Below are positions 32,068 to 64,000 of a stretch of 64,000 nt of DNA, piece by piece (the first letter of the stretch is position 1; each line of letters opens with the position of its first letter). The DNA is taken from the NCBI GenBank assembly GCA_947359465.1, contig CANAIC010000151.1, positions 1 to 64,000 of the forward strand, written 5' to 3'. Both the position numbers and the translations under genes were made by a program. Under the pieces are notes generated by a model that did no database searches, was not told where the DNA came from, and saw only the letters and a list, made by a program, of their open reading frames with translations. This DNA comes from Metellina segmentata. Its lineage: Eukaryota > Arthropoda > Arachnida > Araneae > Tetragnathidae.

Positions 32068-32100
<33 letters not shown>

Positions 32101-32113
32101 TACAGATATAGAT

Positions 32114-34499: not shown

Positions 34500-34502
<3 letters not shown>

Positions 34503-34557
<55 letters not shown>
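34503..34557. repeat. (AT)n microsatellite (mirror 53540-53595)
   Basis: A pure AT dinucleotide run of about 55 bp, present in both arms. Confidence 0.95.
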
Positions 34558-34560
<3 letters not shown>

Positions 34561-36837: not shown

Positions 36838-36893
36838 GGATTCGATCTGACGCTGCCGCGAAAACGCACTACGCCAAAAGTGCCACGCCCCCT
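36838..36893 (-). repeat. tRNA-like promoter remnant (left arm; mirror about 51205-51260)
   Basis: Minus strand: an A-box-like TGGCGTAGTGC and a B-box-like AGATCGAATCC lie about 20 bases apart, preceded by GGGGGCGTGGCAC. The spacing is too short for a working tRNA. A related TGGCGTAG / GGATCGAACCC pair is at 60883-60950. Confidence 0.45.
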
Positions 36894-36923
36894 TCGAAAT
36901 CGCTAAAATCGCATGTTTTAGGA

Positions 36924-37258
36924 GTCATTTTTGATGAAATTAGACCTTTTAACCAGTCTAAAACTAAAAACTAACACTTGTAAACGATAGATGGACTTGA
37001 AATTGATCTGAAACAACACTTTTATAAGGGTTTTATGCTCTAATTTATGCATAAACAATCATTTTCGAAAAAATTTTCGGAAACCGATTCTGAAAATTTT
37101 TTCGAAACCGATTCTGAAAAATGTTTTAGAAATAATTCCTTATACATAAATTAGAGCATAAAAGTGTTGTGTCAGATCAATTTCAAGTCCATCTATCGTT
37201 TACAAGTGTTAGTTTTTAGTTTTAGAATGGTTAAAAGGTCTAATTTCATCAAAATGAC
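36924..37258. repeat. Inverted repeat with arms of about 130 bp (left arm; mirror about 50840-51174)
   Basis: GATGAAATTAGACCTTTTAA at the left is matched by TTAAAAGGTCTAATTTCATC at the right, and the match continues through AAACGATAGATGGACTTGAA. The centre holds direct repeats of AAACCGATTCTGAAAA. It may be a fold-back MITE; no target duplication was identified. Confidence 0.8.
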
Positions 37259-37320
37259 GCTCCGAAATGTGTCATTTTACACCATTTTACGCCAATTGCA
37301 ATAGTAGGGAACATACGCAT

Positions 37321-37412
37321 CGGATTTCACCGCAGCGAGAGTATTTCTAGCTTGCCGTGCATGGACGGTTATGCACGGCAAGCTAGAAATACTCTTGCTG
37401 CGGTGAAATCCG
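37321..37412. other. Long near-perfect hairpin, 42-bp stem and 8-nt loop (left arm)
   Basis: The stem runs from CGGATTTCACCGCAGCGAGA through GTATTTCTAGCTTGCCGTGC-AT, loop GGACGGTT, and returns with ATGCACGGCAAGCTAGAAAT and so on. One position differs (GCGAGAG against CTCTTGC) and would be a G-U wobble in one transcript. The mirror is 50686-50777. Possible roles are a cruciform, a replication or cleavage signal, or a small-RNA precursor; the sequence alone does not choose. Confidence 0.9.
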
Positions 37413-37559
37413 CATGCAAATGATGGATTGCATGCGGTTTTATCGAAAATGATGTTGGTCTTTAAATCCCGAACGTATTTTAATTATGTATTCAATATTT
37501 AAAACAAATTATACACAGTATACAAAACCTAGACACTGGAACTTATTTTGAGACGTCAA

Positions 37560-38760
37560 CAGATTTAACGTGCATGCAAAACCTAGACACTGGAAATTAT
37601 TTTTTGTTACAACAGATTTAACGTGCGCAAGATTTTTAAAAACGCAAAATCCTGACAGCATGCAATTTTTTTTTCGAAAGAAAGATCTGAGGAAGCAAAC
37701 AATGTCTGATTTGTTTTATATTCGATTGGGTGAGAATATCTTAAAAGGTTTTAATGAAATCGTCAACGTACACGCAATTTGAGAAACCTGTCCAGGCTAC
37801 AACAGATTTAACGTGCGCCCAATTTTTAGAAACACAAAATCCTGACAGGATTTGAAAGCTATGATATCCTCAATGGATTTAACGTGCTTCCTGTTTATTT
37901 AAATTCAAACGCTCTGTCTTTTTTTTTTTACAAGATTTGCTTTTACTAATTCTTTTTGTCTTGGTTTCGAACTTTATTTGCCACGAGCGTCCCTTTTTCG
38001 CATGGGCTGTCACATGAGTCTATAGTCCCTTGTGAGGGGCATGTGATAGTTTTCTTACTATCTCTCCTTAATGGTGAGAGCTAAAGGGGAATTAACTCTA
38101 CTATGACTATTTAAAGTTCGAGGAGCAGATCTATGTTGGTTCGAAACAAATACGTTTATTTGTTATTCTGGATTAAATACAATAAATATATACATTTTAG
38201 TAACAATGATGATAAAAGTAATAAACGATACCCATGGATGCATCCGTTACCTAAAGGAAATAATGGGAGAGAAGACGTTAGTAACTAGAGTTTAAATTGT
38301 TAATAAAATCAGGGCTCGATGCCATGGCGGCAAAATCGGGGCCCTGGAGAAACGCTAGCTTTCTCGAGAGAGAGAAAGCCTCGCAAAGACGTTCTTTAGA
38401 ATACAAGAATGCCCTTTTTTGGACTGGAGGTTATCCCCTCCCAAACAGGTTGCTATTCCGCGCACTTAGCGCCAAGCGCATTACCAGGGCAAGTATGTAT
38501 TGCCCTCTTTGGGATTGAGTCTTACAATATACATATGCCATTGATAAATATGGAGTAATTTTTTTTAATGTTTTGGAAGTATAGCTTTTGTTCATTTTTT
38601 GGTGAAAATAAGATAATGGACTTCAAAACACCATTTTGAGAATTCCAGTGCTTAATGTCAAGAAACATCAGTTTCCCCCAACCTGTGTACTCTTAAAGAG
38701 AGGGGTGAATGTTCAGCTATCAACAGGAGACGCTCGCTCTTATCTCACCCAGTTTCACAC
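37560..38760. other. Arm segment without recognised gene (mirror about 49339-50538)
   Basis: It contains three to four copies of CAACAGATTTAACGTGC (37566, 37613, 37801, 37871), then a lower-copy, more complex segment (about 37970-38520) with no recognised protein. Its TGTGACAGCCCATG edge (minus strand) faintly resembles an LTR start, but no primer-binding site, tract or second LTR was found. The 70-, 73- and 102-codon frames have no support. Confidence 0.35.
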
Positions 38761-39084
38761 AAAGACCCGTGACCACCCCTCTACTCGAACCCTGTGGTAA
38801 ATTTTCTTACCTCCCCCTAGAGGAACGCGCGTTCTGAAAGAGCCCACGAATGAAGTTGTTTTCAAAATACGAGCCCATGCGAAAAGGTTAAATGCTGCAC
38901 GTCCAAAAAATGCAACAAGATTGGCGTGAGAGAAGCACAACAATTCAATTAACCACAAACAGGTGAATACAAATATTTTTTTTTTACCCAATGTGTATTT
39001 AAAAAAAAAATAATAATAATTAGCATCCTGGTGTAGCTTTGGGATTCTGAGGGTCCGTTTCACAGCAACACTCGCGCGTTAAAT

Positions 39085-39410
39085 CTGTTGTTGTAGGGCA
39101 GGATGTCAAGTTTCCCAAATCTCTGGTGCACGTTCAATCTGTTGTAGGGTCATGTTTCTCAAATCTCTGGTGCACGTTCAATCTGTTGTAGGGTCATGTT
39201 TCTCAAATCTCTGGTGCACGTTCAATCTGTTGTAGGGTCATGTTTCTCAAATCTCTGGTGCACGTTCAATCTGTTGTAGGGTCATGTTTCTCAAATCTCT
39301 GGTCCATGTTCAATCTGTTGTAGGGTCATGTTTCTCAAATCTCTGGTCCATGTTCAATCTGTTGTAGGGTCATGTTTCTCAAATCTCTGGTCGGTGCGTC
39401 TTTCTCGACA
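39085..39410. repeat. Tandem array of seven 43-45-bp units (left arm; mirror about 48689-49014)
   Basis: The unit core is GTGCACGTTCAATCTGTTGT followed by AGGGTCATGTTTCTCAAATC. One variant copy is followed by four copies with GTGCACG and two with GTCCATG; the right arm has the same order. There are no spacers, so this is a simple tandem repeat. Confidence 0.92.
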
Positions 39411-39454
39411 GCTTTAGCGTGCACCATTGTTTTTTTCTACCCGTGAGAAAAAGT

Positions 39455-39515
39455 CCAACCATATGAAATGGCGTTGTATTGAAAACGGAACCCTAAAAAG
39501 TTTTTTTACCTAATC
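39455..39515 (-). promoter_or_regulatory. Diverged copy of the 59.8-kb promoter module (left arm; mirror 48583-48640)
   Basis: In the right arm CTGATTAGGTAAAA then CCGTTTTCAATACAACGCC aligns with CTGATTGGTTAAAA then CCGTTTTCAATACCACGCC at 59765-59822. The TATA box of the latter is replaced here, so this copy may be inactive. Confidence 0.45.
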
Positions 39516-39859
39516 AGAAACTAGGTCAAGTCAATATTTTTTTTTTTGCTAAAATCACATCTGCTATGGCAAAAGTTGTGAAAGAACAATTCGGAAATGA
39601 CTGGGTGAGAAACATTCAATAGTTTCCAAAATAATGTATTATTTCCTTTAATATAACAAGATTTTAATTTTCAAACCTATGTATTTCTTGAATTAAAATT
39701 TATCGATTTAAAATGTTGTTCTCCCATCTGCCCCTTTAGTCTGGTAGCAACAGATTTAACATACACTAGCCTATAGAAAATGGATTCATCTTGTAGTAAA
39801 ATTCAGGGATTATTATTATTTAAGGCAATTTATTGATTAAAATATTTATTGTTTCCCTC

Positions 39860-40085
39860 TGAATGCCAAACCGCCCGAGACGGCTTTACATCCAGACGAC
39901 CGCTGTCCGCCCGAACCGGCCTTAAACTAATCAGCGTATCTTCCCCTCTACCGGTGAGGAAAGGGTCTCGAAGATCGACCTGTCAGCTTAAGCGATCATC
40001 AGGTGTCAGGGGTCCTTTTCTAACTACACATAATAGCTTCTTCACTCTGTCTGCGGATCGGATAAACTTTTGTGAGATATTTTGC
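39860..40085 (+). other. Unusual GC-richer insert in the arm (mirror about 48014-48239)
   Basis: A stretch with clearly higher GC than its surroundings, open for 80 codons (MFPSECQTARDGFTSRRP...). I recognise no domain. One base differs between arms here (GTCAGCTT against GTCACCTT). It could be a piece of a host gene or of a non-LTR element. Confidence 0.35.
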
Positions 40086-40189
40086 TTTTAAAATGCCTGG
40101 GTAACGAAACACTCGGAAATACGAGGGTGAGTAAAAAATAGATTTTTTACGAATAAAGCACTATTTTCATATATCGGACAGGGAATCCG

Positions 40190-41250
40190 AACTTAAGAAG
40201 GAAAGTGAAAATTTCAATTTCTTACAAAAAGTAGAACCATTACAAACATATTTGCGCAAAAATTTTTCCGAGCATTTTAAGCCGTACGCTCAGTTATCAG
40301 TTGACGAAGCACTCGTTAAATTTAAAGGACGTTTGGGCATTATACAATATATGCCCTTAAAACCCGCCAAACGAGGCATCAAAATTTGGATGCTGTGTAC
40401 ACCTTACTTAGGATACACACTGAAATGTACTGTGGGAAAAAAGACAACACCCCGGGATCAACAAATTGATTGGGATATGATGTTATGATGCATCTAGTAA
40501 AAGACATAACCCATAAAAGCCACACAATATACTTTGATTGCTTTTTCAGTAGCGTCATACTGATGAAAGATCTGCTAAAAATAGGAATATATTCTTGTGG
40601 AACTGTGATGGAAAACCGAAAAATTTGCCCAAAGAATTTAAAGTTATAGGTTCCTCATGAAATCAAATGTTTTCAGTGCATAAACTCTCCGAGCATTCTA
40701 TGTACAACTTGAGTAGACAAAAAAACAGATACATCTTTTATCTACAAATGTTAAAAATGAGAGTTGTTTGGTTACCAGAAGGAAAGGATCAGAAAAAAAA
40801 TTTAGTGCAGTCCCCCGTAGCTTTCGCGGATTATAATAAACATATGTGAGGAGTTGATTTGACTGACCAACAAAGAAAATATTTTTCAGTAGTTAGGAAA
40901 TCATCTAAATGGTGGTGGTATGTGTTTTTTCCTTTCTACTTGACACTGCCATTAGCAATGCCTACATTTTGCACAAAACAACCAACTCTCCACCGATAAA
41001 AGCGATCATTTCAACTCTATGATTTCAAGTTAGAACCGATTGACGAGCTGGCAAAAGAAATATTTCAGAATTTTTCACTACTCCTATTCACGCTCACAAG
41101 AAAAGAAAAATCGATGGACGCAGAAGGACTTGAGTCCTTTGTCGTAAGCTTGGACTTAAAAACTATAAGCGGACGTTCCATTGAAAGCTCCTTTGAGTGT
41201 CATACTTGCAAAATGTGCTTGTGTCAGAATTGTTTTAAAGATGATTAGGG
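40190..41250 (+). pseudogene. piggyBac-like transposase pseudogene (left arm)
   Basis: Blocks readable in order: KNFSEHFKPYAQLSVDEALV, KFKGRLGIIQYMPLKPAKRG (first catalytic Asp region), YLGYTLKCTVGKK, then KMRVVWLPEGKD, ADYNKHM, GVDLTDQQRKYFSVVRKSSK, WWWYVFFPFYLTLPLA and a C-terminal Cys-rich ECHTCKMCLCQNCFKDD. These are the piggyBac/PGBD core and zinc-finger tail. Several frameshifts and stops separate them. The right arm copy has the same lesions. Confidence 0.88.
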
Positions 41251-41254
41251 TTTT

Positions 41255-43490
41255 AATGCTGACGAAATTGCTCTATTCAAGAATATTCCAGAATTTCAGT
41301 AACTTTATTTTTTAAATCTCTCTCTCGATACTGTTAACAGATATACTTCAAATTCATCATAAGTAAAAAAGTGTTTATTTAGAGAAAATTTTATGTTTGA
41401 TCTTGATTTGCTGTGAAAGAAATTTTCTACAAAAAAATTATCATTAGTACTGGAGAAATATATATTTATGGTAATTATTGTGAGAATATAATGCAAGTAT
41501 ATATTCTGTAAAAACCCGAACTAATCCAGATTTTAAAATATTTCTTAAGGAAAACAGAATATAAATTAATTAGCTACAATTTTGTATTTATTATTGACAA
41601 ACAAATCTATTCAATATTAAGGTGATAGAAATGTTTTTATTTGATACTTTTCTACTTCAACCTGTGAATGTATGTTATAATAGATTTTTAAATGAATAAT
41701 TTAATATTTTTGACACGTTCCCGGAACCTTAGCTTAAGAGTACCCATCTCCTAAATTAGGCTGAGTTCTCGATACGTGACAAACCTTTACTTCTTCTAAA
41801 CACACGGTGAGCATACAAATCTTAAATACATGGTTTTGCTATGAATCCCATTTTTGAAGGTTTTCGATTTTTGTGGATGCATAAGGGGACAATGCATCTT
41901 AGAAATGCTATTCATTTGGATAAATCATATAATAGTTTCATGTGTTATTTGCTACATTACATCATCAATGGATGAAAAAAACATGAGCTTTGCATATTTT
42001 CTGTTTGCACGATAAATGTTCTGGGGCAAAATGTCTAAAATATTTTTCTTTCTTCATGCTTATAAGGTTTATATTTTGTTTACATATTGTTTTTTTTTAT
42101 TTGGTCATGCATGCAGCTCATTCTGTTCGTAACCTCATGCCATAAAATCCAAATAACCAACTCTAGATTACAGTTAAAGACAAATTGAAAATGAAAACTT
42201 TTGATCGATCAGATGTATCAAAAATAATTCTATAATTCTTGCTCTAAAAGCAAATATACCCTTAAAAAGAATTCGATAATTCATGCTATAATTTTAATAA
42301 TTATTTCTTGAATTAATTTAAATCATGAGAGATTTGAGAAACCTCAACAGATTGAACGTGCACCAGAGATTTGAGAAACATGACATCCTCAACAGATTGA
42401 ACGTGTACCAGAGATTAAAACACGTTAGTCTAAATCGTATTCTTCAAATGGAATTAAACATTTTTTTTTGTTGAGACATTTGGGCAATATCACTTTCATC
42501 TTTTGCCTTAATCACTACATCTTTTTTCCATGATATTTTGTCGTTGTTTATCATCAGAGAGCCAGTCAAAATCATAAAATGGTTTGATGGAGGGTGAAGA
42601 TTTAGTGGAAGCTTATGGGCCCTCTATCTCCCGGTGCTAAGGAAAAAAAAAATAACGGTACACAGGATATTTTTATTAGCAGAAATAAAAAAAAAATATA
42701 TGGAATAAATCGGCTTGGAAACTGGAGTGTCAGAGAGAAACTGCAAGAGAAAACATGGACGCAATAACATTGCACCGAAGAGACATGGCAACAACCACCG
42801 GTATTATTTACCGCAAGCTTCTTTCACAATGAAAATCATCTTTCTCGAGAAATTAAAAAAAAAGTTATTGTAGTAAAATAAATTATCTCAACATGTTTAA
42901 AAAAGATTAAAAAGTTAAACTTTATCCAATGAAAAACAAGAATAAATTCATTTAAAATTGAAGAAAAGTACACCCATTTTTGTCTCAAAAAAAAATCTAA
43001 TTGTTGTTCTCAGATCAGCCCCTTTTTATTAACAACACATAACGCTTTGAACAATACTTTTTATTAAAAAAAAATTACTTTATGTTCTTGCATTTACCTT
43101 TAGAATTCAAATCGTTCAACGAATAAAATTTCTGGTGGACAAATATTGCCATGTTAATTTAAAAGCATATAATTTGATTATTACTTTCAAAGAACACTGG
43201 TTCTGTGTTCACAATGTGTAAGATATGTTCCAAATACTTTGATGAATTTATTGATTTGACACCCTAACACAATTAATAAACCGTACACTTTTATTTAATT
43301 TCATAAGCAGATGACTAAATGGTAATAGTCTGTTGGATTTAGTTTTTTTTATAATTTGAGTAACAATTCAACAAAACTATGATACCTTTAAGTCAATTGG
43401 TGTGGTAATCTTTGTCTTTTAAATTCTCAATGCATTCAGTGAATTTCAACCTGTATCCATTTGTTTGATTTTATCTTGTAGCAAATTCAG
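41255..43490. other. Inner arm, mostly featureless (mirror about 44609-46844)
   Basis: AT-rich DNA. The only repeated structure is a two-copy CAACAGATTGAACGTG unit at about 42345-42415, linking it to the 45-bp array. No gene is supported. Confidence 0.4.
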
Positions 43491-43674
43491 GGATTAGGGT
43501 CAGGTGGGGTAAAACAGTTATAAAAAGAGGTGCTTTTTCATTTATACCTAATTTGCAAAAAATATATATTGGTTATTTTTGCAAAAAAATTGTATCAAAT
43601 ATGCAACTTAATATTCTTCTCTGCATTTTAGAAACAATTTTAGCAAAAAATAATACAAATTAGTAATTATAATG

Positions 43675-44424: not shown

Positions 44425-46848
44425 CATTATAATTACTAATTTGTATTATTTTTTGCTAAAATTGTTTCTAAAATGCAGAGAAGAATATTAAGTTGCATAT
44501 TTGATACAATTTTTTTGCAAAAATAACCAATATATATTTTTTGCAAATTAGGTATAAATGAAAAAGCACCTCTTTTTATAACTGTTTTACCCCACCTGAC
44601 CCTAATCCCTGAATTTGCTACAAGATAAAATCAAACAAATGGATACAGGTTGAAATTCACTGAATGCATTGAGAATTTAAAAGACAAAGATTACCACACC
44701 AATTGACTTAAAGGTATCATAGTTTTGTTGAATTGTTACTCAAATTATAAAAAAAACTAAATCCAACAGACTATTACCATTTAGTCATCTGCTTATGAAA
44801 TTAAATAAAAGTGTACGGTTTATTAATTGTGTTAGGGTGTCAAATCAATAAATTCATCAAAGTATTTGGAACATATCTTACACATTGTGAACACAGAACC
44901 AGTGTTCTTTGAAAGTAATAATCAAATTATATGCTTTTAAATTAACATGGCAATATTTGTCCACCAGAAATTTTATTCGTTGAACGATTTGAATTCTAAA
45001 GGTAAATGCAAGAACATAAAGTAATTTTTTTTTAATAAAAAGTATTGTTCAAAGCGTTATGTGTTGTTAATAAAAAGGGGCTGATCTGAGAACAACAATT
45101 AGATTTTTTTTTGAGACAAAAATGGGTGTACTTTTCTTCAATTTTAAATGAATTTATTCTTGTTTTTCATTGGATAAAGTTTAACTTTTTAATCTTTTTT
45201 AAACATGTTGAGATAATTTATTTTACTACAATAACTTTTTTTTTAATTTCTCGAGAAAGATGATTTTCATTGTGAAAGAAGCTTGCGGTAAATAATACCG
45301 GTGGTTGTTGCCATGTCTCTTCGGTGCAATGTTATTGCGTCCATGTTTTCTCTTGCAGTTTCTCTCTGACACTCCAGTTTCCAAGCCGATTTATTCCATA
45401 TATTTTTTTTTTATTTCTGCTAATAAAAATATCCTGTGTACCGTTATTTTTTTTTTCCTTAGCACCGGGAGATAGAGGGCCCATAAGCTTCCACTAAATC
45501 TTCACCCTCCATCAAACCATTTTATGATTTTGACTGGCTCTCTGATGATAAACAACGACAAAATATCATGGAAAAAAGATGTAGTGATTAAGGCAAAAGA
45601 TGAAAGTGATATTGCCCAAATGTCTCAACAAAAAAAAATGTTTAATTCCATTTGAAGAATACGATTTAGACTAACGTGTTTTAATCTCTGGTACACGTTC
45701 AATCTGTTGAGGATGTCATGTTTCTCAAATCTCTGGTGCACGTTCAATCTGTTGAGGTTTCTCAAATCTCTCATGATTTAAATTAATTCAAGAAATAATT
45801 ATTAAAATTATAGCATGAATTATCGAATTCTTTTTAAGGGTATATTTGCTTTTAGAGCAAGAATTATAGAATTATTTTTGATACATCTGATCGATCAAAA
45901 GTTTTCATTTTCAATTTGTCTTTAACTGTAATCTAGAGTTGGTTATTTGGATTTTATGGCATGAGGTTACGAACAGAATGAGCTGCATGCATGACCAAAT
46001 AAAAAAAAACAATATGTAAACAAAATATAAACCTTATAAGCATGAAGAAAGAAAAATATTTTAGACATTTTGCCCCAGAACATTTATCGTGCAAACAGAA
46101 AATATGCAAAGCTCATGTTTTTTTCATCCATTGATGATGTAATGTAGCAAATAACACATGAAACTATTATATGATTTATCCAAATGAATAGCATTTCTAA
46201 GATGCATTGTCCCCTTATGCATCCACAAAAATCGAAAACCTTCAAAAATGGGATTCATAGCAAAACCATGTATTTAAGATTTGTATGCTCACCGTGTGTT
46301 TAGAAGAAGTAAAGGTTTGTCACGTATCGAGAACTCAGCCTAATTTAGGAGATGGGTACTCTTAAGCTAAGGTTCCGGGAACGTGTCAAAAATATTAAAT
46401 TATTCATTTAAAAATCTATTATAACATACATTCACAGGTTGAAGTAGAAAAGTATCAAATAAAAACATTTCTATCACCTTAATATTGAATAGATTTGTTT
46501 GTCAATAATAAATACAAAATTGTAGCTAATTAATTTATATTCTGTTTTCCTTAAGAAATATTTTAAAATCTGGATTAGTTCGGGTTTTTACAGAATATAT
46601 ACTTGCATTATATTCTCACAATAATTACCATAAATATATATTTCTCCAGTACTAATGATAATTTTTTTGTAGAAAATTTCTTTCACAGCAAATCAAGATC
46701 AAACATAAAATTTGCTCTAAATAAACACTTTTTTACTTATGATGAATTTGAAGTATATCTGTTAACAGTATCGAGAGAGAGATTTAAAAAATAAAGTTAC
46801 TGAAATTCTGGAATATTCTTGAATAGAGCAATTTCGTCAGCATTAAAA

Positions 46849-47909
46849 CCCTAATCATCTTTAAAACAATTCTGACACAAGCACATTTTGCAAGTATGAC
46901 ACTCAAAGGAGCTTTCAATGGAACGTCCGCTTATAGTTTTTAAGTCCAAGCTTACGACAAAGGACTCAAGTCCTTCTGCGTCCATCGATTTTTCTTTTCT
47001 TGTGAGCGTGAATAGGAGTAGTGAAAAATTCTGAAATATTTCTTTTGCCAGCTCGTCAATCGGTTCTAACTTGAAATCATAGAGTTGAAATGATCGCTTT
47101 TATCGGTGGAGAGTTGGTTGTTTTGTGCAAAATGTAGGCATTGCTAATGGCAGTGTCAAGTAGAAAGGAAAAAACACATACCACCACCATTTAGATGATT
47201 TCCTAACTACTGAAAAATATTTTCTTTGTTGGTCAGTCAAATCAACTCCTCACATATGTTTATTATAATCCGCGAAAGCTACGGGGGACTGCACTAAATT
47301 TTTTTTCTGATCCTTTCCTTCTGGTAACCAAACAACTCTCATTTTTAACATTTGTAGATAAAAGATGTATCTGTTTTTTTGTCTACTCAAGTTGTACATA
47401 GAATGCTCGGAGAGTTTATGCACTGAAAACATTTGATTTCATGAGGAACCTATAACTTTAAATTCTTTGGGCAAATTTTTCGGTTTTCCATCACAGTTCC
47501 ACAAGAATATATTCCTATTTTTAGCAGATCTTTCATCAGTATGACGCTACTGAAAAAGCAATCAAAGTATATTGTGTGGCTTTTATGGGTTATGTCTTTT
47601 ACTAGATGCATCATAACATCATATCCCAATCAATTTGTTGATCCCGGGGTGTTGTCTTTTTTCCCACAGTACATTTCAGTGTGTATCCTAAGTAAGGTGT
47701 ACACAGCATCCAAATTTTGATGCCTCGTTTGGCGGGTTTTAAGGGCATATATTGTATAATGCCCAAACGTCCTTTAAATTTAACGAGTGCTTCGTCAACT
47801 GATAACTGAGCGTACGGCTTAAAATGCTCGGAAAAATTTTTGCGCAAATATGTTTGTAATGGTTCTACTTTTTGTAAGAAATTGAAATTTTCACTTTCCT
47901 TCTTAAGTT
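46849..47909 (-). pseudogene. piggyBac-like transposase pseudogene (right arm)
   Basis: Mirror of 40190-41250, with the same frameshifts and stops. The decay therefore predates the inverted duplication, or the arms have been homogenised since. Confidence 0.88.
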
Positions 47910-50685
47910 CGGATTCCCTGTCCGATATATGAAAATAGTGCTTTATTCGTAAAAAATCTATTTTTTACTCACCCTCGTATTTCCGAGTGTTTCGTTACCC
48001 AGGCATTTTAAAAGCAAAATATCTCACAAAAGTTTATCCGATCCGCAGACAGAGTGAAGAAGCTATTATGTGTAGTTAGAAAAGGACCCCTGACACCTGA
48101 TGATCGCTTAAGGTGACAGGTCGATCTTCGAGACCCTTTCCTCACCGGTAGAGGGGAAGATACGCTGATTAGTTTAAGGCCGGTTCGGGCGGACAGCGGT
48201 CGTCTGGATGTAAAGCCGTCTCGGGCGGTTTGGCATTCAGAGGGAAACAATAAATATTTTAATCAATAAATTGCCTTAAATAATAATAATCCCTGAATTT
48301 TACTACAAGATGAATCCATTTTCTATAGGCTAGTGTATGTTAAATCTGTTGCTACCAGACTAAAGGGGCAGATGGGAGAACAACATTTTAAATCGATAAA
48401 TTTTAATTCAAGAAATACATAGGTTTGAAAATTAAAATCTTGTTATATTAAAGGAAATAATACATTATTTTGGAAACTATTGAATGTTTCTCACCCAGTC
48501 ATTTCCGAATTGTTCTTTCACAACTTTTGCCATAGCAGATGTGATTTTAGCAAAAAAAAAATATTGACTTGACCTAGTTTCTGATTAGGTAAAAAAACTT
48601 TTTAGGGTTCCGTTTTCAATACAACGCCATTTCATATGGTTGGACTTTTTCTCACGGGTAGAAAAAAACAATGGTGCACGCTAAAGCTGTCGAGAAAGAC
48701 GCACCGACCAGAGATTTGAGAAACATGACCCTACAACAGATTGAACATGGACCAGAGATTTGAGAAACATGACCCTACAACAGATTGAACATGGACCAGA
48801 GATTTGAGAAACATGACCCTACAACAGATTGAACGTGCACCAGAGATTTGAGAAACATGACCCTACAACAGATTGAACGTGCACCAGAGATTTGAGAAAC
48901 ATGACCCTACAACAGATTGAACGTGCACCAGAGATTTGAGAAACATGACCCTACAACAGATTGAACGTGCACCAGAGATTTGGGAAACTTGACATCCTGC
49001 CCTACAACAACAGATTTAACGCGCGAGTGTTGCTGTGAAACGGACCCTCAGAATCCCAAAGCTACACCAGGATGCTAATTATTATTATTTTTTTTTTAAA
49101 TACACATTGGGTAAAAAAAAAATATTTGTATTCACCTGTTTGTGGTTAATTGAATTGTTGTGCTTCTCTCACGCCAATCTTGTTGCATTTTTTGGACGTG
49201 CAGCATTTAACCTTTTCGCATGGGCTCGTATTTTGAAAACAACTTCATTCGTGGGCTCTTTCAGAACGCGCGTTCCTCTAGGGGGAGGTAAGAAAATTTA
49301 CCACAGGGTTCGAGTAGAGGGGTGGTCACGGGTCTTTGTGTGAAACTGGGTGAGATAAGAGCGAGCGTCTCCTGTTGATAGCTGAACATTCACCCCTCTC
49401 TTTAAGAGTACACAGGTTGGGGGAAACTGATGTTTCTTGACATTAAGCACTGGAATTCTCAAAATGGTGTTTTGAAGTCCATTATCTTATTTTCACCAAA
49501 AAATGAACAAAAGCTATACTTCCAAAACATTAAAAAAAATTACTCCATATTTATCAATGGCATATGTATATTGTAAGACTCAATCCCAAAGAGGGCAATA
49601 CATACTTGCCCTGGTAATGCGCTTGGCGCTAAGTGCGCGGAATAGCAACCTGTTTGGGAGGGGATAACCTCCAGTCCAAAAAAGGGCATTCTTGTATTCT
49701 AAAGAACGTCTTTGCGAGGCTTTCTCTCTCTCGAGAAAGCTAGCGTTTCTCCAGGGCCCCGATTTTGCCGCCATGGCATCGAGCCCTGATTTTATTAACA
49801 ATTTAAACTCTAGTTACTAACGTCTTCTCTCCCATTATTTCCTTTAGGTAACGGATGCATCCATGGGTATCGTTTATTACTTTTATCATCATTGTTACTA
49901 AAATGTATATATTTATTGTATTTAATCCAGAATAACAAATAAACGTATTTGTTTCGAACCAACATAGATCTGCTCCTCGAACTTTAAATAGTCATAGTAG
50001 AGTTAATTCCCCTTTAGCTCTCACCATTAAGGAGAGATAGTAAGAAAACTATCACATGCCCCTCACAAGGGACTATAGACTCATGTGACAGCCCATGCGA
50101 AAAAGGGACGCTCGTGGCAAATAAAGTTCGAAACCAAGACAAAAAGAATTAGTAAAAGCAAATCTTGTAAAAAAAAAAAGACAGAGCGTTTGAATTTAAA
50201 TAAACAGGAAGCACGTTAAATCCATTGAGGATATCATAGCTTTCAAATCCTGTCAGGATTTTGTGTTTCTAAAAATTGGGCGCACGTTAAATCTGTTGTA
50301 GCCTGGACAGGTTTCTCAAATTGCGTGTACGTTGACGATTTCATTAAAACCTTTTAAGATATTCTCACCCAATCGAATATAAAACAAATCAGACATTGTT
50401 TGCTTCCTCAGATCTTTCTTTCGAAAAAAAAATTGCATGCTGTCAGGATTTTGCGTTTTTAAAAATCTTGCGCACGTTAAATCTGTTGTAACAAAAAATA
50501 ATTTCCAGTGTCTAGGTTTTGCATGCACGTTAAATCTGTTGACGTCTCAAAATAAGTTCCAGTGTCTAGGTTTTGTATACTGTGTATAATTTGTTTTAAA
50601 TATTGAATACATAATTAAAATACGTTCGGGATTTAAAGACCAACATCATTTTCGATAAAACCGCATGCAATCCATCATTTGCATG

Positions 50686-50777
50686 CGGATTTCACCGCAG
50701 CAAGAGTATTTCTAGCTTGCCGTGCATAACCGTCCATGCACGGCAAGCTAGAAATACTCTCGCTGCGGTGAAATCCG
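50686..50777. other. Long near-perfect hairpin (right-arm copy)
   Basis: Mirror of 37321-37412 with the same stem, loop (AACCGTCC on this strand) and single wobble position. Confidence 0.9.
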
Positions 50778-53537
50778 ATGCGTATGTTCCCTACTATTGC
50801 AATTGGCGTAAAATGGTGTAAAATGACACATTTCGGAGCGTCATTTTGATGAAATTAGACCTTTTAACCATTCTAAAACTAAAAACTAACACTTGTAAAC
50901 GATAGATGGACTTGAAATTGATCTGACACAACACTTTTATGCTCTAATTTATGTATAAGGAATTATTTCTAAAACATTTTTCAGAATCGGTTTCGAAAAA
51001 ATTTTCAGAATCGGTTTCCGAAAATTTTTTCGAAAATGATTGTTTATGCATAAATTAGAGCATAAAACCCTTATAAAAGTGTTGTTTCAGATCAATTTCA
51101 AGTCCATCTATCGTTTACAAGTGTTAGTTTTTAGTTTTAGACTGGTTAAAAGGTCTAATTTCATCAAAAATGACTCCTAAAACATGCGATTTTAGCGATT
51201 TCGAAGGGGGCGTGGCACTTTTGGCGTAGTGCGTTTTCGCGGCAGCGTCAGATCGAATCCAGCTGAAGAAATTTTTTAAATAATCTTGCAAATTTACTAA
51301 AAAAATCCCAATTATTTTAATAAATCCACTGTATTTTTTTCATTCATTTTCAATTTTTTTTTAGTGAATTTTCGATTTTTTTTAGTGAATTTTCGATTTT
51401 TTTAGTGAATTTCTACGTTTGTCATTTATTTTAAATGCATTAATTTGATTTAAATTATGTGATCGTGATTTTAATTAATTCAAGAAATAATTATTAACGC
51501 AGAATTAAATCAAAACAATAAATATTTTAAACTCAAATCAATAAATTGCCTGAAATAAAATAAAAAAGCATAATAATAATCCCTGAACTTTACTACAAAA
51601 TGAACACATTTTCTATAGGCTGGTGTATGTTAAATCTGTTGTTACCAGACTAAAGGGGGGTAGATGCGAGGACAACATTTTAAAATAATTATATCAACAA
51701 GAAATAAATATTTTAAATTAATTCTATCAACAATAAATATTTTAAACTCAAATCAATAAATTGTCTATACAAGATAAAATTTAAAAAAAAAATGAATTCA
51801 TTTTCAATAGGCTTGTGTATGTTAAATCTGTTGTTACCAGACTAAAGGGGGGGTAGATGCGAGGACAACATTTTAAAATAATTCTATCAACAAGAAATAA
51901 ATATTTTAAATTAATTCTATCAACAATAAATTAATTCTATCAACAAGAAATATTTTAAACTCAAATCAATAAATTGTCTATACAAGATAAAATTTAAAAA
52001 AAAATGAATTCATTTTCAATAGGCTTGTGTATGTTAAATCTGTTGTTACCAGACTAAAGGGGGGGTAGATGCGAGGACAACATTTTAAAATAATTCTATC
52101 AACAAGAAATAAATATTTTAAATTAATTCTATCAACAATAAATTAATTCTATCAACAAGAAATATTTTAAACTCAAATCAATAAATTGTCTATACAAGAT
52201 AAAATTTAAAAAAAAAATGAATTCATTTTCAATAGGCTTGTGTATGTTAAATCTGTTGTTACCAGACTAAAGGGGGGGTAGATGCGAGGACAACATTTTA
52301 AATTAATTCTATCAACAAGAAATAAATATTTTAAATCAAAATAATTATATCAACAAGAAATAAATATTTTAAATTAATTCTATCAACAATAAATATTTTA
52401 AACTCAAATCAATAAATTGTCTATACAAGATAAAATTTAAAAAAAAAATGAATTCATTTTCAATAGGCTGGTGTATGTTAAATCTGTTGTTACCAGACTA
52501 AAGGGGGGGTAGATGCGAGGACAACATTTTAAAATAATTCTATCAACAAGAAATAAATCAAAACAATTAGCAATAAATTAATTCTATCAACAAGAAATAT
52601 TTTAAACTCAAATCAATAAATTGTCTATACAAGATAAAATTTAAAAAAAAAATGAATTCATTTTCAATAGGCTTGTGTATGTTAAATCTGTTGTTACCAG
52701 ACTAAAGGGGGGTAGATGCGAGGACAACATTTTAAATTAATTCTATCAACAAGAAATAAATCAAAACAATTAGCAATAAATTAATTCTATCAACAATAAA
52801 TATTTTAAACTCAAAACAATAAATTGTCTACAAGATAAAATTTAAAAAAAAAAATGAATCCATTTTCAATAGGCTGGTGTATGTTAAATCTGTTGTTACC
52901 AGATTTAACATACACTTACATAACATTTAACATACATTACTCATTTTATATTTCAATTGATGATTTTTTTTGGGGGGGGAGGAGGTATGCCAAAGTTGGA
53001 TTGAATTCATATTTGCTCAGAGTGATTCGTGTGTTAATTTTACAAATTTCGTATCCTCCTGACCTGTATGTGATATGTATTTGTAAAAAAATTCATTTCC
53101 ACGTTAACAATCATCCTGATTCGTATCATATTAGAATAAGGATCATGTCACAATAATTCTGCAGTGGGATTGTTATTGTGTGTGAGAGACAAACATGACT
53201 ACTGACATTTTATATTTCAATTGATTTTTATTTTTTTGGGAGGTGTGTGTTTTTTTTCATGTGTAAACAATAATTCATATTTGCTGAGAGTGTGTCAATT
53301 TACAAATTCCCCCCTGACCTGTCAAGTGTGTAATATGTATTTTGTTAAAATTCATTTCCATCATCCTGATTCATATCCCAAAGATTCTTTTCCTCCAGCT
53401 TTTGAAAAAAACAAAAACAACCGACACATTTCAAGGAATGTTTATTGAGCGAGACATGAATACTGTCAACTGATTTTATACAATTGTTGCATTTCAATGT
53501 AAAATATATCTGGTTGATTTTATAAATCGAATGTATC

Positions 53538-53598
<61 letters not shown>

Positions 53599-53817
53599 AA
53601 TGAAAATTTCGTGTGTTGATCTACAGGTATGTTCAGTGTAAAATGTTTTCACATCATTTGAGTGATTTTTTCCTCTCAAAAAATCCTGATGGTCACTCGA
53701 ATCAGAGTGTGCTCTGGCCCTTCTTGTACGAGTGTGCTTTCAGGATGAGTTGGAAATCATTACCATTGTTTTGTTACACAGGTACAGTAACGTGTGTATC
53801 AAATAATTATGCCGGAT

Positions 53818-53910
53818 CATTAATTTCGGGACAATCTCTTCACTGCAATGAATGCATGACACTGCAGTTTTAGTGTCTTGAATCAAATGGTAATACTGGT
53901 TCAAAGACAT
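53818..53910 (-). pseudogene. Truncated 5' copy of the 548-codon gene (right arm, copy B)
   Basis: Mirror of 34186-34278; start codon at 53908-53910 on the minus strand. Confidence 0.8.
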
Positions 53911-55887
53911 ATCTATGTAAAGAAAATTAAGAATGCAACGTTCTCTCAGAAATCAAAATCATGGATCTCATTGCTAATTGAATGGACTGGGATGAAGATT
54001 GTATTTATATTCACATGTTTTCAAAATGAATAAATGTTTTTTTTATTTATGATTATTTTATTTTAACGTGTGTATCAAATATTTATACCCTTTTCAGGAC
54101 ACCTGGATTGGTGGGAAACATGAAATCCACAACAGATTTAACATGTGTATCAAATAATTATGCCCTTTTCAGGAAACATGAAATCCACAACAGATTTAAC
54201 ATGTGTATCAAATAATTATGCCCTTTTAGTTTTGCAGGATTGGTGGGAAACATGAAATCCACAACAGATTGAACGTGCACATGAATCAAATGGATCTCAT
54301 TGCTAATCGAATGGGGGGCAAGGATGAAGATTGTATTACCTGTATCATACATGTTTTTAAAATGAATAAAAGGTTTTTTTTTATTGATGATATGTGTTTC
54401 ATTTCAAACCCTATTAAAAAAATATGCTTCAGGTGAAGCTTTTGTTTTCTGATTGACACACTAAGCATTTTAATGTATACTCATATTGTTTATTGAGCGA
54501 GACGTGTTTTTTGTTGAATGATGCAAAACTCCTGGAAGAGGTACATGGTATAAACATTTTTTTTTTATGTGATGACTTTGCATGACACGATATAAAAAAT
54601 TTTATCTTCTGGTATGGGTCTCACTTAAAAAAAAACCAGGGGGGGAGTAAATAAAACAATTGGGAGGGGTGCACCTTCAATTGATTGGCGAGAGAGAAAT
54701 AAAAAACATCACTCGGGTGTTGCCATCTTGTCGATAAATGTTCAAACCCAATCTTGGAAATTAAAAATAATAAAAGGCATGCGTAATTCACATCGCTTTT
54801 GCCAATAAATGTTCAAACCCAATCTTGGAAATTAAAAAATATCTGCCACAATAATTCTGCAGTGAGATTGTTTTGTTTTGAATAAGGATCTGTGTCATGC
54901 CACAATAATTCTGCAGTGGGATTGTTTGTGTGTGTGTGTGTGTACTCTTGAGAGATAGATGAACAAACACGACTGTACTCATTTCAATTGATTATTATTT
55001 TATTTTGGGAGATGTGCCAAAGTTGGATTGAATTCATATTTTGCTCAGAGTGATTCATGTGTCAATTTTACAAATTTCGTATCCTGTCAAGTATTTGTAA
55101 AAAAATTCATTTCCACATCATCTCCTGATTCATATCCCCGAGTATATTAGAATGTGTCATGTCACAATAATTCTGCAGTGGGATTATTTTGTGTGTGTGT
55201 GTGAGACGAACATGGTGTGCCAAAGTTGGATTGAATTCATATTTTGCTCAGAGTGATTCATGTGTCAATGTTACAAATTTCGTATCCTGTCAAGTATTTG
55301 TAAAAAAATTCATTTCATGTGCCAAAGTAAACAATAATTCATATTTGCTGAGAGTGTGTCAATTTACAAATTCCACCCTGACCTGTCAAGTGTGTGGGTG
55401 TAATATGTATTTGTTAAAATTAATTTCCATCAACAATCATCCTGATTCATATCCCAGAGTACAATACACAGAGATTCTTTTCCCACCAGCTTTTGAAAAA
55501 AATAACAACTGACACATTTCAAGGAATGTTTATCGAGCGACTGTATCTTTTTCCCCACTTGACACATTTCAAGAAATTTTTTGTTGTTGATCTAGCGAGA
55601 CATGACTACTGTAAAACATGTAGTATCATTCGGGTAATTTTCCTCTAAAAAAAAATCCTGATGGTCACTCGAATCAGAGTGTGCTCTGGCCCCTCTTGTA
55701 CGAGTGTGCTTTCAGGATGAGTTGGAAATTGTTTTGTTTTTATGTGTAGTCTGAATTGCTGCTATATTGTGTTTTCTTTTTGTCGGTGAAACAATCCTTT
55801 TCACACGTTGTGGATATATTTTCATGCGTTCACACAATAACATGACTGTTTTTTTTTAACACGTGTGTATCAAATAATTATGCCCGT

Positions 55888-55980
55888 CATTAATTTCGGG
55901 ACAATCTCTTCACTGCAATGAATGCATGACACTGCAGTTTTAGTGTCTTGGATCAAATGGTAATACTGGTTCAAAGACAT
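55888..55980 (-). pseudogene. Truncated 5' copy of the 548-codon gene (right arm, copy A)
   Basis: Mirror of 32114-32206; start codon at 55978-55980. Its upstream DNA (TA tract, AACCTTTGACC, AGGTTGTGTAAAGAATTAAG, GAATGCAACGTTCTCTCAGA) aligns with 59205-59380 upstream of the intact gene. Confidence 0.8.
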
Positions 55981-55993
55981 ATCTATATCTGTA

Positions 55994-56026
<33 letters not shown>

Positions 56027-57386
56027 ACCTTTGACCCCTTAGGTTGAAATTCTGAAATTACTCTACGAAATACCTCTAAGAAAAGGGGTATAAGGTTGTG
56101 TAAAGAATTAAGAATGCAACGTTCTCTCAGAAATCAAAATCATAAACTGAAAACATTTGTGTAAAGAAATTAAGAATGCAACGTTCTCTCAGAAATCAAA
56201 ATCATGGATCACATTGCTAATTGAATGGACTGGGATGAAGATTGTATTTATATTCACATGTTTTCAAAATGAATAAATGTTTTTTTTATTTATGATTATT
56301 TTATTTTAACGTGTGTATCAATAACGTGTGTATCAAATAATTATACCCTTTTCAGGACACCTGGATTGGTGGGAAACATGAAATCCACAACAGATTTAAC
56401 ATGTGTATCAAATAATTATGCCCTTTTCAGGAAACATGAAATCCACAACAGATTTAACATGTGTATCAAATAGATCTCATTGCTAATCGAATGGGCAGGG
56501 ATGAAGATTGTATTTATATTCACATGTTTTCAAAATGAATAAATATATATTTTTTATTTATGATATGTGTTTCATTTCAAACCCTATTAAAAAAAAAAGT
56601 TTCAGGTGAAATTTTTTTTTCTGATTGACACACTAAGCATTTTAATGTATACACATATTGTTTATTGAGCGAGGCACACAAGTTTTTTGTTGAATGATGC
56701 GAGACTCCTGGAAGAGGTACACGGTATAAATATATATTTTTTTATGTGATGACTTTGCATGATGCGGTATAAATAATTTTATTTTGTGGAAGGCAAATCT
56801 TCTGGTATGGGTCTCACTTTTAAAAAAAACTTGGGGGGGAGTAAATAAAACAATTGGGGTGCACGTTCAATTGATTGGCGAGAGAAGAAAAAAAAACAAC
56901 ACTCGGGTGTTGCCATCTTGTTGATAAATGTTCAAACCCAATCTTGGAAATTAAAAATAATAAAAGGCAGTCGTAATTCACATCGCTTTTGCCGATAAAT
57001 ACTCAATCTTGGAAAATAATAAAAGGCACGCGCAATCACATCGCTTTTGCCAATAAATGTTCAAACCCAATCTTGAAAAATATAAAAGGCACGTTTAATT
57101 CATTTTCAAATCCAATCTTGGAAATAAAAAATATAAAAGGCACGTTTAATTCATTTTCAAATCCAATCTTGGAAATAAAAAATATAAAAGGCACGTTTAA
57201 TTCATTTACAAATCCAATCTTGAAAATAAAAAAAAATATAAAAGGCACGTTTAATTCATTTACAAACCCAATCTTGGAAATAAAAAAAAATATAAAATGC
57301 ACGTTTAATTCAAAATGGGTCGTTTTCAATTTAGGAAATTTTTTTCATGGGGTTACGGTGCTCATCTATTTTTTCGACCGACTGTA

Positions 57387-60825: not shown

Positions 60826-60882
60826 AAGTCATAGTTGTTAACTATATATACATTTCAAACGGCATTCATTACAACTGAACGG

Positions 60883-60960
60883 TGGCTCAATGGCGTAGGC
60901 ACCTGGTTTTTTTCGCCAACAGTGGAGCGGTAGATGGTAGGATCGAACCCGGCCAAGGGT
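60883..60960 (+). repeat. tRNA-like remnant
   Basis: TGGCTCAATGGCGTAGGCAC resembles an A box and GGATCGAACCC (60940-60950) a B box, about 50 bases apart. It shares TGGCGTAG with the remnant in the palindrome arms. I could not fold a complete cloverleaf by eye, so I call a remnant and not a tRNA gene. Confidence 0.4.
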
Positions 60961-61053
60961 GGATATTAAAAAATTGTTTTTAACAAAGTTAAAATGGCAG
61001 AATTAAAAAAATAACCTCTGAGGGTATTAAAATCTCAAGTATATATAATGAGG

Positions 61054-61104: not shown

Positions 61105-61106
<2 letters not shown>

Positions 61107-61130
61107 TCCCCGCGTTCCAAAAACAACTTT

Positions 61131-61229
61131 TTGAAGGATATTGCCTTATATGGTCACAACGCTTCGACCGCGTGCTAAAAAATAACTTTTTTCAAGGATA
61201 TTGCCTTATATGGTCACAACGCTTCGACC
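61131..61229 (+). promoter_or_regulatory. Two 39-bp direct repeats, each with a perfect CArG box
   Basis: AAGGATATTGCCTTATATGG then TCACAACGCTTCGACC occurs twice with a 60-bp period. CCTTATATGG (61144-61153 and 61204-61213) matches CC(A/T)6GG, the serum response factor / MADS consensus. Binding is inference. Confidence 0.6.
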
Positions 61230-61244
61230 TGCTTTTTCCTGCGA

Positions 61245-61302
61245 TCCTATTGGCTCAAACTTTGCAGCGGTGGGTATAAGAAGCGATGCGATCCGCCATT
61301 CT
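61245..61302 (+). promoter_or_regulatory. Core promoter-like region before the hairpin array
   Basis: ATTGG (inverted CCAAT) near 61248, then TATAAG at about 61275, about 30 bases before the array starts at 61303. Only the first unit has this upstream context; later units are preceded by the end of the previous unit. Confidence 0.55.
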
Positions 61303-62426
61303 ATCGGACTCATTGGTAAGTAAACTCTTGTTGCTTTTGCTGCTTCTCGCTGCTTGTTGTCCTGTTCCTGCTCTCTTTTCCCCCGGTTCGGTGGAATTGG
61401 GGAAAAGAGCAGAAACAGTTGCTCTGTGTGTGTGTATGCTTTTTTTTTTGGCGCATGTGGTGTCATCCTGCACCTTCGCAATTCCAGTCAATTTCCCCGA
61501 AAAACATGTCCCTCCTGCAGGGCTAGTAAGGGAATCGTACTGGGTCTTTGTGGAGTGTGTGGGGATTTATGCAAAGGACTGAGCCGGCCAGACCTCTGCA
61601 TAAAGACACGCTTTTTATTTTTTTTTCGCTTTTGTTGTCATGTCCCTCCCCGAGTCCCGAAGCAAGAAGACGCAATCGATAACCCATGCTGTTTGACCCC
61701 GTGTATGGCTATACATGGATGCACAGCATGGGTTGAGGATCCTGTACCCCCTTTTTGGGGAGTATGGATGCCTGTTTCTTTATTGAAACAGATGCGCGTT
61801 TCGAGAATTTTTTTCTCGTTGCGCTTGCTCGTTTCGAAAAAAAACCTTGTGTTTTTTTTCGATTACGGATGCCTGATACGACGTATGTCGTTCAGATGCT
61901 CGTTCTTTTTATAAAGGACGGATGGATACCTTTGTACCCAAGACTTTGGTCCTGATGACGGATTTCTGTTTCTCGAGGGATCATGACATTGGAGGCCTGC
62001 ACGGTAAAACGTGGAGTTGCCTGTATCTGGGGAAGCCTCTTGGTGCACCCGGGAAGGATGCCTGTTTCTCCTGAAACGGATGCCCATCATCGAGAAAATA
62101 TCTCTCGTGTTGGATGCCTACAACCAGGCTTCAAAAACCTGGGGGTAGGTTTTTTTCCCCTACAGGTGGCGAGTGAATTGAATTTTTTTTGTTCATTCAC
62201 ACGGCTCGGTGGTGAAGTGAATTCTTTTTTTGTTCCTTCACACGGCCGCAAGAAGAAGAGGATGATCCAGTGGTGGTGAATTGAATTTTTTTGTTCATTC
62301 ACAAACCAGAGTGTGAATTGAATTTTTGTTCATTCACAAGCCGAACGAGGTAAGTATAATGTTTTTTTACAGGTTATCCTGGTGAATTGAATTATTGTTC
62401 ATTCACGAACAGATCCAGTGGTGGTG
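61303..62426 (+). repeat. Hairpin-chain tandem unit 1 (1124 bp)
   Basis: The unit begins ATCGGACTCATTGGTAAGTA and is repeated at a 1124-bp period. At least 15 separate stem-loops are readable: 61368-61412 (14-bp stem with a 2-nt bulge), 61566-61604 (11 of 12 paired), 61681-61734 (12 bp perfect), 61744-61764, 61772-61791 (7 bp), 61794-61824 (GCGC plus CGAGAA), 61834-61862 (12 bp, 5-nt loop), 61873-61895 (9 bp with a bulge), 62063-62076, 62090-62106, 62117-62149, and a five-member family at 62173-62200, 62212-62241, 62276-62302, 62313-62337 and 62382-62406. It also carries two strong splice-donor-like sites. The 186-codon frame at 61354-61914 has no recognised domain. Confidence 0.9.
62348..62373 (+). 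other. Mini-intron-like sequence inside each hairpin unit
   Basis: GAG followed by GTAAGTATAA, then TTTTTTTACAG and GTT: a consensus donor and acceptor only about 23 bases apart. Repeats at +1124. Metazoan introns this short are not known to splice, so the donor may instead pair with a distant acceptor, or the acceptor with the upstream GGTAAGTA at 61315. Confidence 0.35.
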
Positions 62427-63550
62427 ATCGGACTCATTGGTAAGTAAACTCTTGTTGCTTTTGCTGCTTCTCGCTGCTTGTTGTCCTGTTCCTGCTCTCT
62501 TTTCCCCCGGTTCGGTGGAATTGGGGAAAAGAGCAGAAACAGTTGCTCTGTGTGTGTGTATGCTTTTTTTTTTGGCGCATGTGGTGTCATCCTGCACCTT
62601 CGCAATTCCAGTCAATTTCCCCGAAAAACATGTCCCTCCTGCAGGGCTAGTAAGGGAATCGTACTGGGTCTTTGTGGAGTGTGTGGGGATTTATGCAAAG
62701 GACTGAGCCGGCCAGACCTCTGCATAAAGACACGCTTTTTATTTTTTTTTCGCTTTTGTTGTCATGTCCCTCCCCGAGTCCCGAAGCAAGAAGACGCAAT
62801 CGATAACCCATGCTGTTTGACCCCGTGTATGGCTATACATGGATGCACAGCATGGGTTGAGGATCCTGTACCCCCTTTTTGGGGAGTATGGATGCCTGTT
62901 TCTTTATTGAAACAGATGCGCGTTTCGAGAATTTTTTTCTCGTTGCGCTTGCTCGTTTCGAAAAAAAACCTTGTGTTTTTTTTCGATTACGGATGCCTGA
63001 TACGACGTATGTCGTTCAGATGCTCGTTCTTTTTATAAAGGACGGATGGATACCTTTGTACCCAAGACTTTGGTCCTGATGACGGATTTCTGTTTCTCGA
63101 GGGATCATGACATTGGAGGCCTGCACGGTAAAACGTGGAGTTGCCTGTATCTGGGGAAGCCTCTTGGTGCACCCGGGAAGGATGCCTGTTTCTCCTGAAA
63201 CGGATGCCCATCATCGAGAAAATATCTCTCGTGTTGGATGCCTACAACCAGGCTTCAAAAACCTGGGGGTAGGTTTTTTTCCCCTACAGGTGGCGAGTGA
63301 ATTGAATTTTTTTTGTTCATTCACACGGCTCGGTGGTGAAGTGAATTCTTTTTTTGTTCCTTCACACGGCCGCAAGAAGAAGAGGATGATCCAGTGGTGG
63401 TGAATTGAATTTTTTTGTTCATTCACAAACCAGAGTGTGAATTGAATTTTTGTTCATTCACAAGCCGAACGAGGTAAGTATAATGTTTTTTTACAGGTTA
63501 TCCTGGTGAATTGAATTATTGTTCATTCACGAACAGATCCAGTGGTGGTG
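62427..63550 (+). repeat. Hairpin-chain tandem unit 2 (1124 bp)
   Basis: As far as I compared them, identical to unit 1, including its predicted frames and all hairpins at +1124. Such uniformity implies recent expansion or ongoing homogenisation. Confidence 0.92.
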
Positions 63551-64000
63551 ATCGGACTCATTGGTAAGTAAACTCTTGTTGCTTTTGCTGCTTCTCGCTG
63601 CTTGTTGTCCTGTTCCTGCTCTCTTTTCCCCCGGTTCGGTGGAATTGGGGAAAAGAGCAGAAACAGTTGCTCTGTGTGTGTGTATGCTTTTTTTTTTGGC
63701 GCATGTGGTGTCATCCTGCACCTTCGCAATTCCAGTCAATTTCCCCGAAAAACATGTCCCTCCTGCAGGGCTAGTAAGGGAATCGTACTGGGTCTTTGTG
63801 GAGTGTGTGGGGATTTATGCAAAGGACTGAGCCGGCCAGACCTCTGCATAAAGACACGCTTTTTATTTTTTTTTCGCTTTTGTTGTCATGTCCCTCCCCG
63901 AGTCCCGAAGCAAGAAGACGCAATCGATAACCCATGCTGTTTGACCCCGTGTATGGCTATACATGGATGCACAGCATGGGTTGAGGATCCTGTACCCCCT
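63551..64000 (+). repeat. Hairpin-chain tandem unit 3, cut by the window end
   Basis: The first 450 bp of a third copy, at +2248 from unit 1. The array continues beyond the window, so its copy number is unknown. Confidence 0.9.

Follow-up and report, generated by a model that had tools for sequence, protein, structure and literature searches.

The window, i.e. the whole 64,000-nucleotide stretch of DNA from the spider Metellina segmentata that was analysed, ends in a tandem array whose 1124-bp unit reads as a chain of hairpins. The question that this locus raises is what such an array is, to which kind of genome it belongs, and whether its hairpins serve as RNA or as DNA. The preliminary description of the array had set it apart from ordinary satellites and had offered a structured RNA, cleavage or packaging signals, hairpin replication origins or a source of small RNAs as its possible functions.

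Structure and bounds of the tandem array

The 1124-bp period is exact from position 61303 to 64000 (lag-1124 identity at 1574 of 1574 positions), giving 2.4 copies inside the window (see Table 1). Beyond the window on the same contig, the array reaches five full units (C160:66924), followed by repeats of 177-180 bp. The assembly as a whole comprises 173 contigs totalling 1.665 Gb, and 266 matches to the unit occur in it; 16 array loci, the window's own among them, were fetched for comparison. All 16 have gene-like bounds: a fixed block, 2-5 full units (46 in all), a common tail and a common 3′ region. The number of full 177-180-bp sub-repeats per locus is 0-2, and a TTTAAGG-rich stretch lies 3′ of the array in each of the 16. 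An ordinary satellite, which would be an array without such bounds, is ruled out by this anatomy, and the preliminary description was right to separate the two.

Table 1. Coordinates of the array, its hairpins and the adjoining features (positions of the window).
Feature	Position	Strand	Remarks
Open frame, 558 codons	57554-59230	-	adjoins the array in the window
Promoter-like block, 198 bp	61105-61302	+	precedes the array
33-bp sequence, present twice	61137-61169, 61197-61229		spacing 60 bp; both copies contain a CC(A/T)6GG box
ATTGG	61249-61253		followed by GGTATAAG at 61273-61280
Unit 1	61303-62426	+	exact period; starts 28 nt past the first base of TATAA
Unit 2	62427-63550	+	identical to unit 1
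Unit 3	63551-64000	+	truncated by the window end
Possible intron	61316-62165	+	GTAAGT at 61316, TTTTTTTCCCCTACAG ending at 62165; sequence-only prediction
Longest single hairpin in the unit's first third	61362-61418	+	-27.6 kcal/mol
Hairpin with 12-bp and 8-bp stems	61681-61734	+	21 pairs, -27.3 kcal/mol
Chain core, five hairpins	61772-61921	+	linkers in order ATGC, TTGC, ATGC, ATGC
Hairpins of the core	61772-61791, 61796-61824, 61829-61868, 61873-61895, 61900-61921		
Two hairpins with ATGC linker	62062-62113	+	diverged duplicate of 61772-61824
Five related GTGAAT...ATTCAC hairpins	62173-62406	+	T-rich loops
Hairpins of the GTGAAT group	62173-62200, 62212-62241, 62276-62302, 62313-62337, 62382-62406		in the unit's last quarter
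Second donor-acceptor-like pair	62350-62372	+	23 nt apart

The minimum folding energy of the unit is -417.7 kcal/mol, compared to -332.0 kcal/mol (sd 9.2) for 60 dinucleotide shuffles (z -9.3), and its minus strand gives z -9.6 against the same number of shuffles. If pairs are restricted to at most 60 nt, the unit reaches -353.1 against -258.9 (sd 11.9), a value matched by none of 400 shuffles and by none of the 54 other tiles of the window; the number of domains of -5 kcal/mol or better is 24 against 19.5 (sd 1.7), which 3 of 400 shuffles reach. Among 120-nt windows, 49% of the 43 in the array have z < -2 vs. 8.5% of the 1022 elsewhere, and the window's other tandem arrays show little excess structure (z 0.6, -2.2 and -3.2). 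The folding energy, which the preliminary description had named as a check, thus lies far outside the shuffled range.

The hairpins themselves were counted in positions 61681-62426 (746 nt), a stretch that was picked after its fold had been seen. In its centroid structure, 17 hairpins reach -5 kcal/mol or better, whereas 300 shuffles give a mean of 10.0 (sd 1.9, maximum 15). Six junctions measure exactly 4 nt, with ATGC at four of them and TTGC and GTAT at one each; in 300 shuffles such junctions average 0.34, never exceed two and never carry the same linker twice. Perfect stems of at least 6 bp number 10 vs. 3.9 in shuffles (at most 9 among 100 shuffles), with no excess over the other tiles of the window (mean 7.3, maximum 13). 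The longest series of close domains with any linker is not exceptional either, being reached in 124 of 400 shuffles. What is in excess, then, is hairpin stability and the repeated linker, rather than the number of stems or their packing. The chain of hairpins that had been described goes beyond chance; its bead-like spacing proves more regular than was noted as regards the linker, but the close packing is common in shuffled sequence, and the abundance of perfect stems stands out from shuffles but not from the rest of the window.

In most hairpins of the chain the pairs number 7-16; about 19-21 are found only at 61362-61418 and 61681-61734. Resemblance among them is confined to the GTGAAT group of five and to a single block that is duplicated; imperfect palindromes are present in the repeat, as in the homologous regions (hr) of baculoviruses, while a single repeated palindrome core is absent. 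In the GTGAAT group all 45 of 45 cells pair. At one stem position four members have T-A and the fifth has G-C; a change on both sides with pairing kept is equalled by 92 of 500 column shuffles of these five short rows. The two-hairpin block is present twice in the unit, at 61766-61819 and 62056-62108 (76% alike). When the two copies are put in register by hand, the first hairpin of the block retains 7 of 7 pairs, with one T-A becoming T-G; in the second, both sides of two pairs have changed while the pairing is retained, two pairs are gained and two are lost.

Assignment to an endogenous large DNA virus

Beside the array, the 558-codon frame encodes a relative of a hypothetical protein from Microctonus hyperodae filamentous virus (41% identity over 96%). 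A second relative in the same database (40% over 83%) lies in the wasp's own records, and nothing was found for this protein in PHROGs, the Protein Data Bank or Pfam. The frame belongs to a gene family of ~550 aa: the member to the left of the array is full length in the window and in loci L014, L015 and L018, while the right-hand member is often broken and is found in 15 of the 16 loci L009-L024, the remaining locus ending too early. This is the one gene through which the link to filamentous viruses is drawn.

Further genes lie inward of the arrays. On the window's contig, 38 kb past the array (L027, C160:105000-110000), these are a 522-aa protein with viral-type domains of the largest RNA polymerase subunit (PF00623, E 9e-13), a gene for innexin, a gap-junction protein (L027:2641-3612, plus strand; PF00876, E 3e-25), and a 382-aa protein whose 12 relatives comprise five named ones, all from Trichonephila, and seven unnamed. 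Between the two arrays of a copy on contig C10 (L026), a protein with a domain of the second RNA polymerase subunit is encoded (PF00562, E 4e-17). The 522-aa protein gives 80 matches, 78 strong and two weak. The named strong ones are all from spiders, namely Oedothorax gibbosus, Trichonephila clavipes, T. clavata, Caerostris darwini, Araneus ventricosus and Argiope bruennichi, and two unnamed relatives carry PF05094, which we take to be the baculovirus LEF-9 family. Scans of IMG/VR gave no confirmed relative.

Arrays or blocks lie within contigs of more than 100 Mb (C3, C7, C8, C9, C10 and C12). On the strength of this placement, of the viral-type RNA polymerase genes and of the filamentous-virus-related gene, we assign the array to a multicopy endogenous large DNA virus in the spider genome; its assignment to spiders draws on the relatives of the inner genes. 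The preliminary description had missed this setting, i.e. that of a bounded, putatively promoter-led viral locus, with a common anatomy in 16 of 16 loci.

The copies are closely alike. The 46 units of the 16 loci reduce to 19 sequences, which differ at 8 substituted columns and by some indels, and with the best 40 candidates scored, unit positions 1-947 give at least 40 matches to the assembly at ≥99.5% identity along with 8 short sub-repeat matches. Four mirror-arranged pairs of loci (L010/L011, L012/L013, L014/L015 and L016/L017) have the same order of unit types. In L016, on contig C12, a 666-bp insertion with a terminal 14-bp direct repeat separates the block from the array and resembles a host mobile element. 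With respect to the window, substitutions amount to 29 of 46,178 sites in the units and 2 of 2,970 in the block, compared to 102 of 26,101 aligned sites in the upstream non-coding sequence and 54 of 24,001 downstream; these counts use the best matching piece per locus with diverged pieces excluded, and the 558-aa gene was dropped from the flank comparison since matches to its relative were mixed in. That block and units vary less may reflect constraint or homogenisation between copies, the copies not being independent. On these counts the proviral copies compared are recent, and older ones may exist beside them.

A 26-bp piece of the block gives 115 genome matches with at most 3 mismatches, vs. 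none for the reversed control. Among the matches listed it is exact in 100 of 100 places, paired 59-60 bp apart, from which we infer about 57 blocks in the assembly, the presence of an array having been checked for part of them. Distances between blocks were taken from the listed places on the 16 contigs with at least two blocks, leaving out ten contigs with one listed block and contig C153, whose places are incompletely listed. There are 17 convergent pairs, with distances of 119-132 kb in 15 of them and of 27 and 82 kb in the other two, along with a divergent pair at 43 kb (C36) and a same-strand pair at 13 kb (C47). The gaps of 43 and 127 kb on C36 would be consistent with a genome of ~170 kb, circular or joined head to tail, as judged from this one contig. 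Odd block distances on C3 (G000:C3:6251935-6278705, the 27-kb convergent pair) and C47 (G000:C47:47373-60485, the same-strand pair) suggest deleted or rearranged proviruses.

Several other features of the window were recorded. Positions 30708-43674 and 44425-57386 form a palindrome with 12.97-kb arms, 99.95% identical, around a spacer of ~750 bp, which may be real or an effect of the assembly. Each arm contains a 335-nt self-palindrome (36924-37258, mirrored at 50840-51174; fold z -31 with 40 shuffles). Of the 37 occurrences of TTAAATCTGT in the window, 33 are at 31.6-59.9 kb, in several tandem arrays with units of 44-212 bp that are possibly regulatory or origin repeats of the virus. Remnants of Tc1/mariner-type transposases at 12340-14164 are probably host sequence outside the provirus. 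Dispersed repeats of ~150-470 bp, ~71-91% alike and in both orientations, occupy 5039-9650 with relatives near 17.7 and 25.1 kb. Positions 60880-60965, ahead of an A-run and the promoter-like block, look tRNA-like by eye (with the B-box-like GGATCGAACCC), and the stretch adjoining the A-run is common to the fetched loci; ARAGORN reports no tRNA there or elsewhere in the window.

Candidate functions of the array

The longest open frame of the unit has 196 codons. It is the sole long frame, a T-run inside it varies in length between copies and shifts the frame, and no Pfam family is found in the unit; a protein-coding gene is rejected on these grounds. A described RNA such as a ribozyme, snoRNA or microRNA is rejected as well, since the Rfam scan of the window gave no match at the gathering threshold, microRNA families included, and the lax threshold added only rows at chance level (E 0.8-2).

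The array is preceded in all 16 fetched loci by the 198-bp block, which is 99.5-100% identical among them and whose boxes, named after consensus sequences, are presumably those of a promoter. Signals resembling splice sites lean to the plus strand: GTAAGT occurs twice on it in the unit and never on the minus strand (8 and 11 times in window positions 1-61000), and an acceptor pattern 7 times vs. once (196 and 142), although these donor and acceptor counts are small. The pair at 62350-62372 is too short for an ordinary animal intron. Similarly, GATGC occurs 8 times on the plus strand and not at all on the minus strand. The promoter-like block, the restriction of splice-like signals and GATGC largely to one strand, and the absence of a conserved frame all fit a structured non-coding RNA gene, the promoter-led locus of a recently multiplied endogenous virus; we regard this reading as the likeliest and give it an even chance. 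The structure excess and the lower substitution rates described above favour it too, and a nudivirus is reported to make a non-coding persistency transcript (PMC6292938).

In such a gene, RNA polymerase II would start near 61303 on the plus strand and read through the units into the common 3′ region, the segment corresponding to 61316-62165 possibly being spliced out of each unit. The RNA, or its excised part, would then fold into hairpins spaced by AUGC linkers. Its role would be that of a structured non-coding RNA of a persistent provirus, comparable in role to persistency-associated gene 1 (pag1) of Heliothis zea nudivirus 1, and it may act as a scaffold or decoy for RNA-binding proteins, with tandem units raising the dose of hairpins per transcript. 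That it represents a new kind of viral RNA gene, i.e. strings of hairpins whose stems may vary as long as the pairing and the AUGC linker are kept, with the information of a modular RNA held in spacing and shape, made by a virus that now resides in a spider genome in many copies, strikes us as rather unlikely.

Several observations weigh against an RNA gene. The 196-codon frame is reached by just 13 of 300 shuffles, and the low substitution rate may stem from homogenisation. With pairs of at most 60 nt and 300 shuffles, structure on the minus strand equals or exceeds that on the plus strand (z -10.2 vs. -8.1). Moreover, plus-strand G-U pairs number 43, fewer than the 60.7 in shuffles, and isolated mismatches in the otherwise nearly perfect Watson-Crick stems are A-C in 7 cases and G-T in 3, which lends no support to selection for a plus-strand RNA.

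This strand-neutral pairing with few G-U pairs fits at least as well a DNA-level element, that is, a viral replication origin or enhancer whose single-stranded or cruciform hairpins are recognised by their shape, and whose promoter would overlap the origin. We regard it as the main rival, possible if somewhat unlikely. With DNA parameters, positions 61681-62170 fold about as strongly (z -8.9) as with RNA parameters (z -8.5), and most proviral copies carry two mirror-arranged arrays. Palindrome-rich direct repeats are reported from related viruses, the ant labial gland disease viruses (PMC12548425), and in one baculovirus all origins found are said to share units of three predicted hairpins that have no sequence in common (PMC6669502). 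The one-sided features, namely the promoter-like block, GATGC and the donor and acceptor patterns, are at odds with such an element. So is the fact that most stems differ outside the five GTGAAT hairpins, whereas hr repeats a single palindrome core.

The chain could also be an unselected by-product, in which fold-back, strand-switching replication makes and perfects inverted repeats at all sizes and tandem duplication follows. Inverted repeats do occur here at several scales (the 12.97-kb palindrome, the mirrored pairs of arrays, alike in internal pattern, and the 335-nt self-palindrome), and the nearly perfect stems fit it as well. It leaves unexplained, however, the repeated ATGC linker, the constant block and array start and the lower variation than in the flanks, and the low structure of the window's other tandem arrays speaks against it; we consider it quite improbable. 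Very improbable is a cluster of precursors of small RNAs, i.e. of microRNA or siRNA hairpins: most hairpins have 7-16 pairs, which is short for Dicer, and no microRNA family reaches threshold. In its favour, two hairpins have about 19-21 pairs, and microRNAs are reported to arise from the persistency RNA of the nudivirus (PMC6292938). Of the functions first proposed, a structured RNA and hairpin origins hence still lead, and the small-RNA source has weakened.

If transcribed, the array would supply a structured RNA of unusual regularity, made by a virus resident in its host's genome, and a test case for viral silence or the handling of RNA sensors. If it acts as DNA, it would point to origins or enhancers in which shape, not sequence, is the defining feature. 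Either way, it marks very large, recent spider proviruses, the RNA polymerase gene of which has relatives in six named spider species.

Comparison with known systems

A search of the open-access literature, with subscription journals and preprints outside its scope, found no paper on such spider proviruses. The endogenous nimaviruses of crustaceans are likewise described as large DNA viruses that have inserted themselves into arthropod genomes much as selfish elements do (PMC10871703), but the sole shared gene found in the spider provirus points to filamentous viruses instead. That gene is the 558-aa one held in common with Microctonus hyperodae filamentous virus, which differs in having a wasp host; in the main text on that virus, 'hairpin' and 'palindrom' have no occurrence (PMC10403939).

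The likeness we propose to pag1 of Heliothis zea nudivirus 1, reported as a non-coding transcript of the silent state (PMC6292938), is that of a non-coding transcript from a related kind of virus, and no conserved protein-coding frame was found in the array. The spider locus differs in being a tandem hairpin chain with a hypothetical transcript, in which no microRNA family reaches threshold.

The repeats of baculoviruses (hr) and of the labial gland disease viruses, as reported, share with the array that they are tandem and palindrome-rich, belong to large DNA viruses and are dissimilar between viruses (PMC12548425, PMC6669502). The units of the array are likewise direct repeats in tandem, in a large DNA virus of an arthropod. 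It differs from both in its mostly differing stems, its repeated 4-nt linker, a promoter-like block of its own and its polarity.
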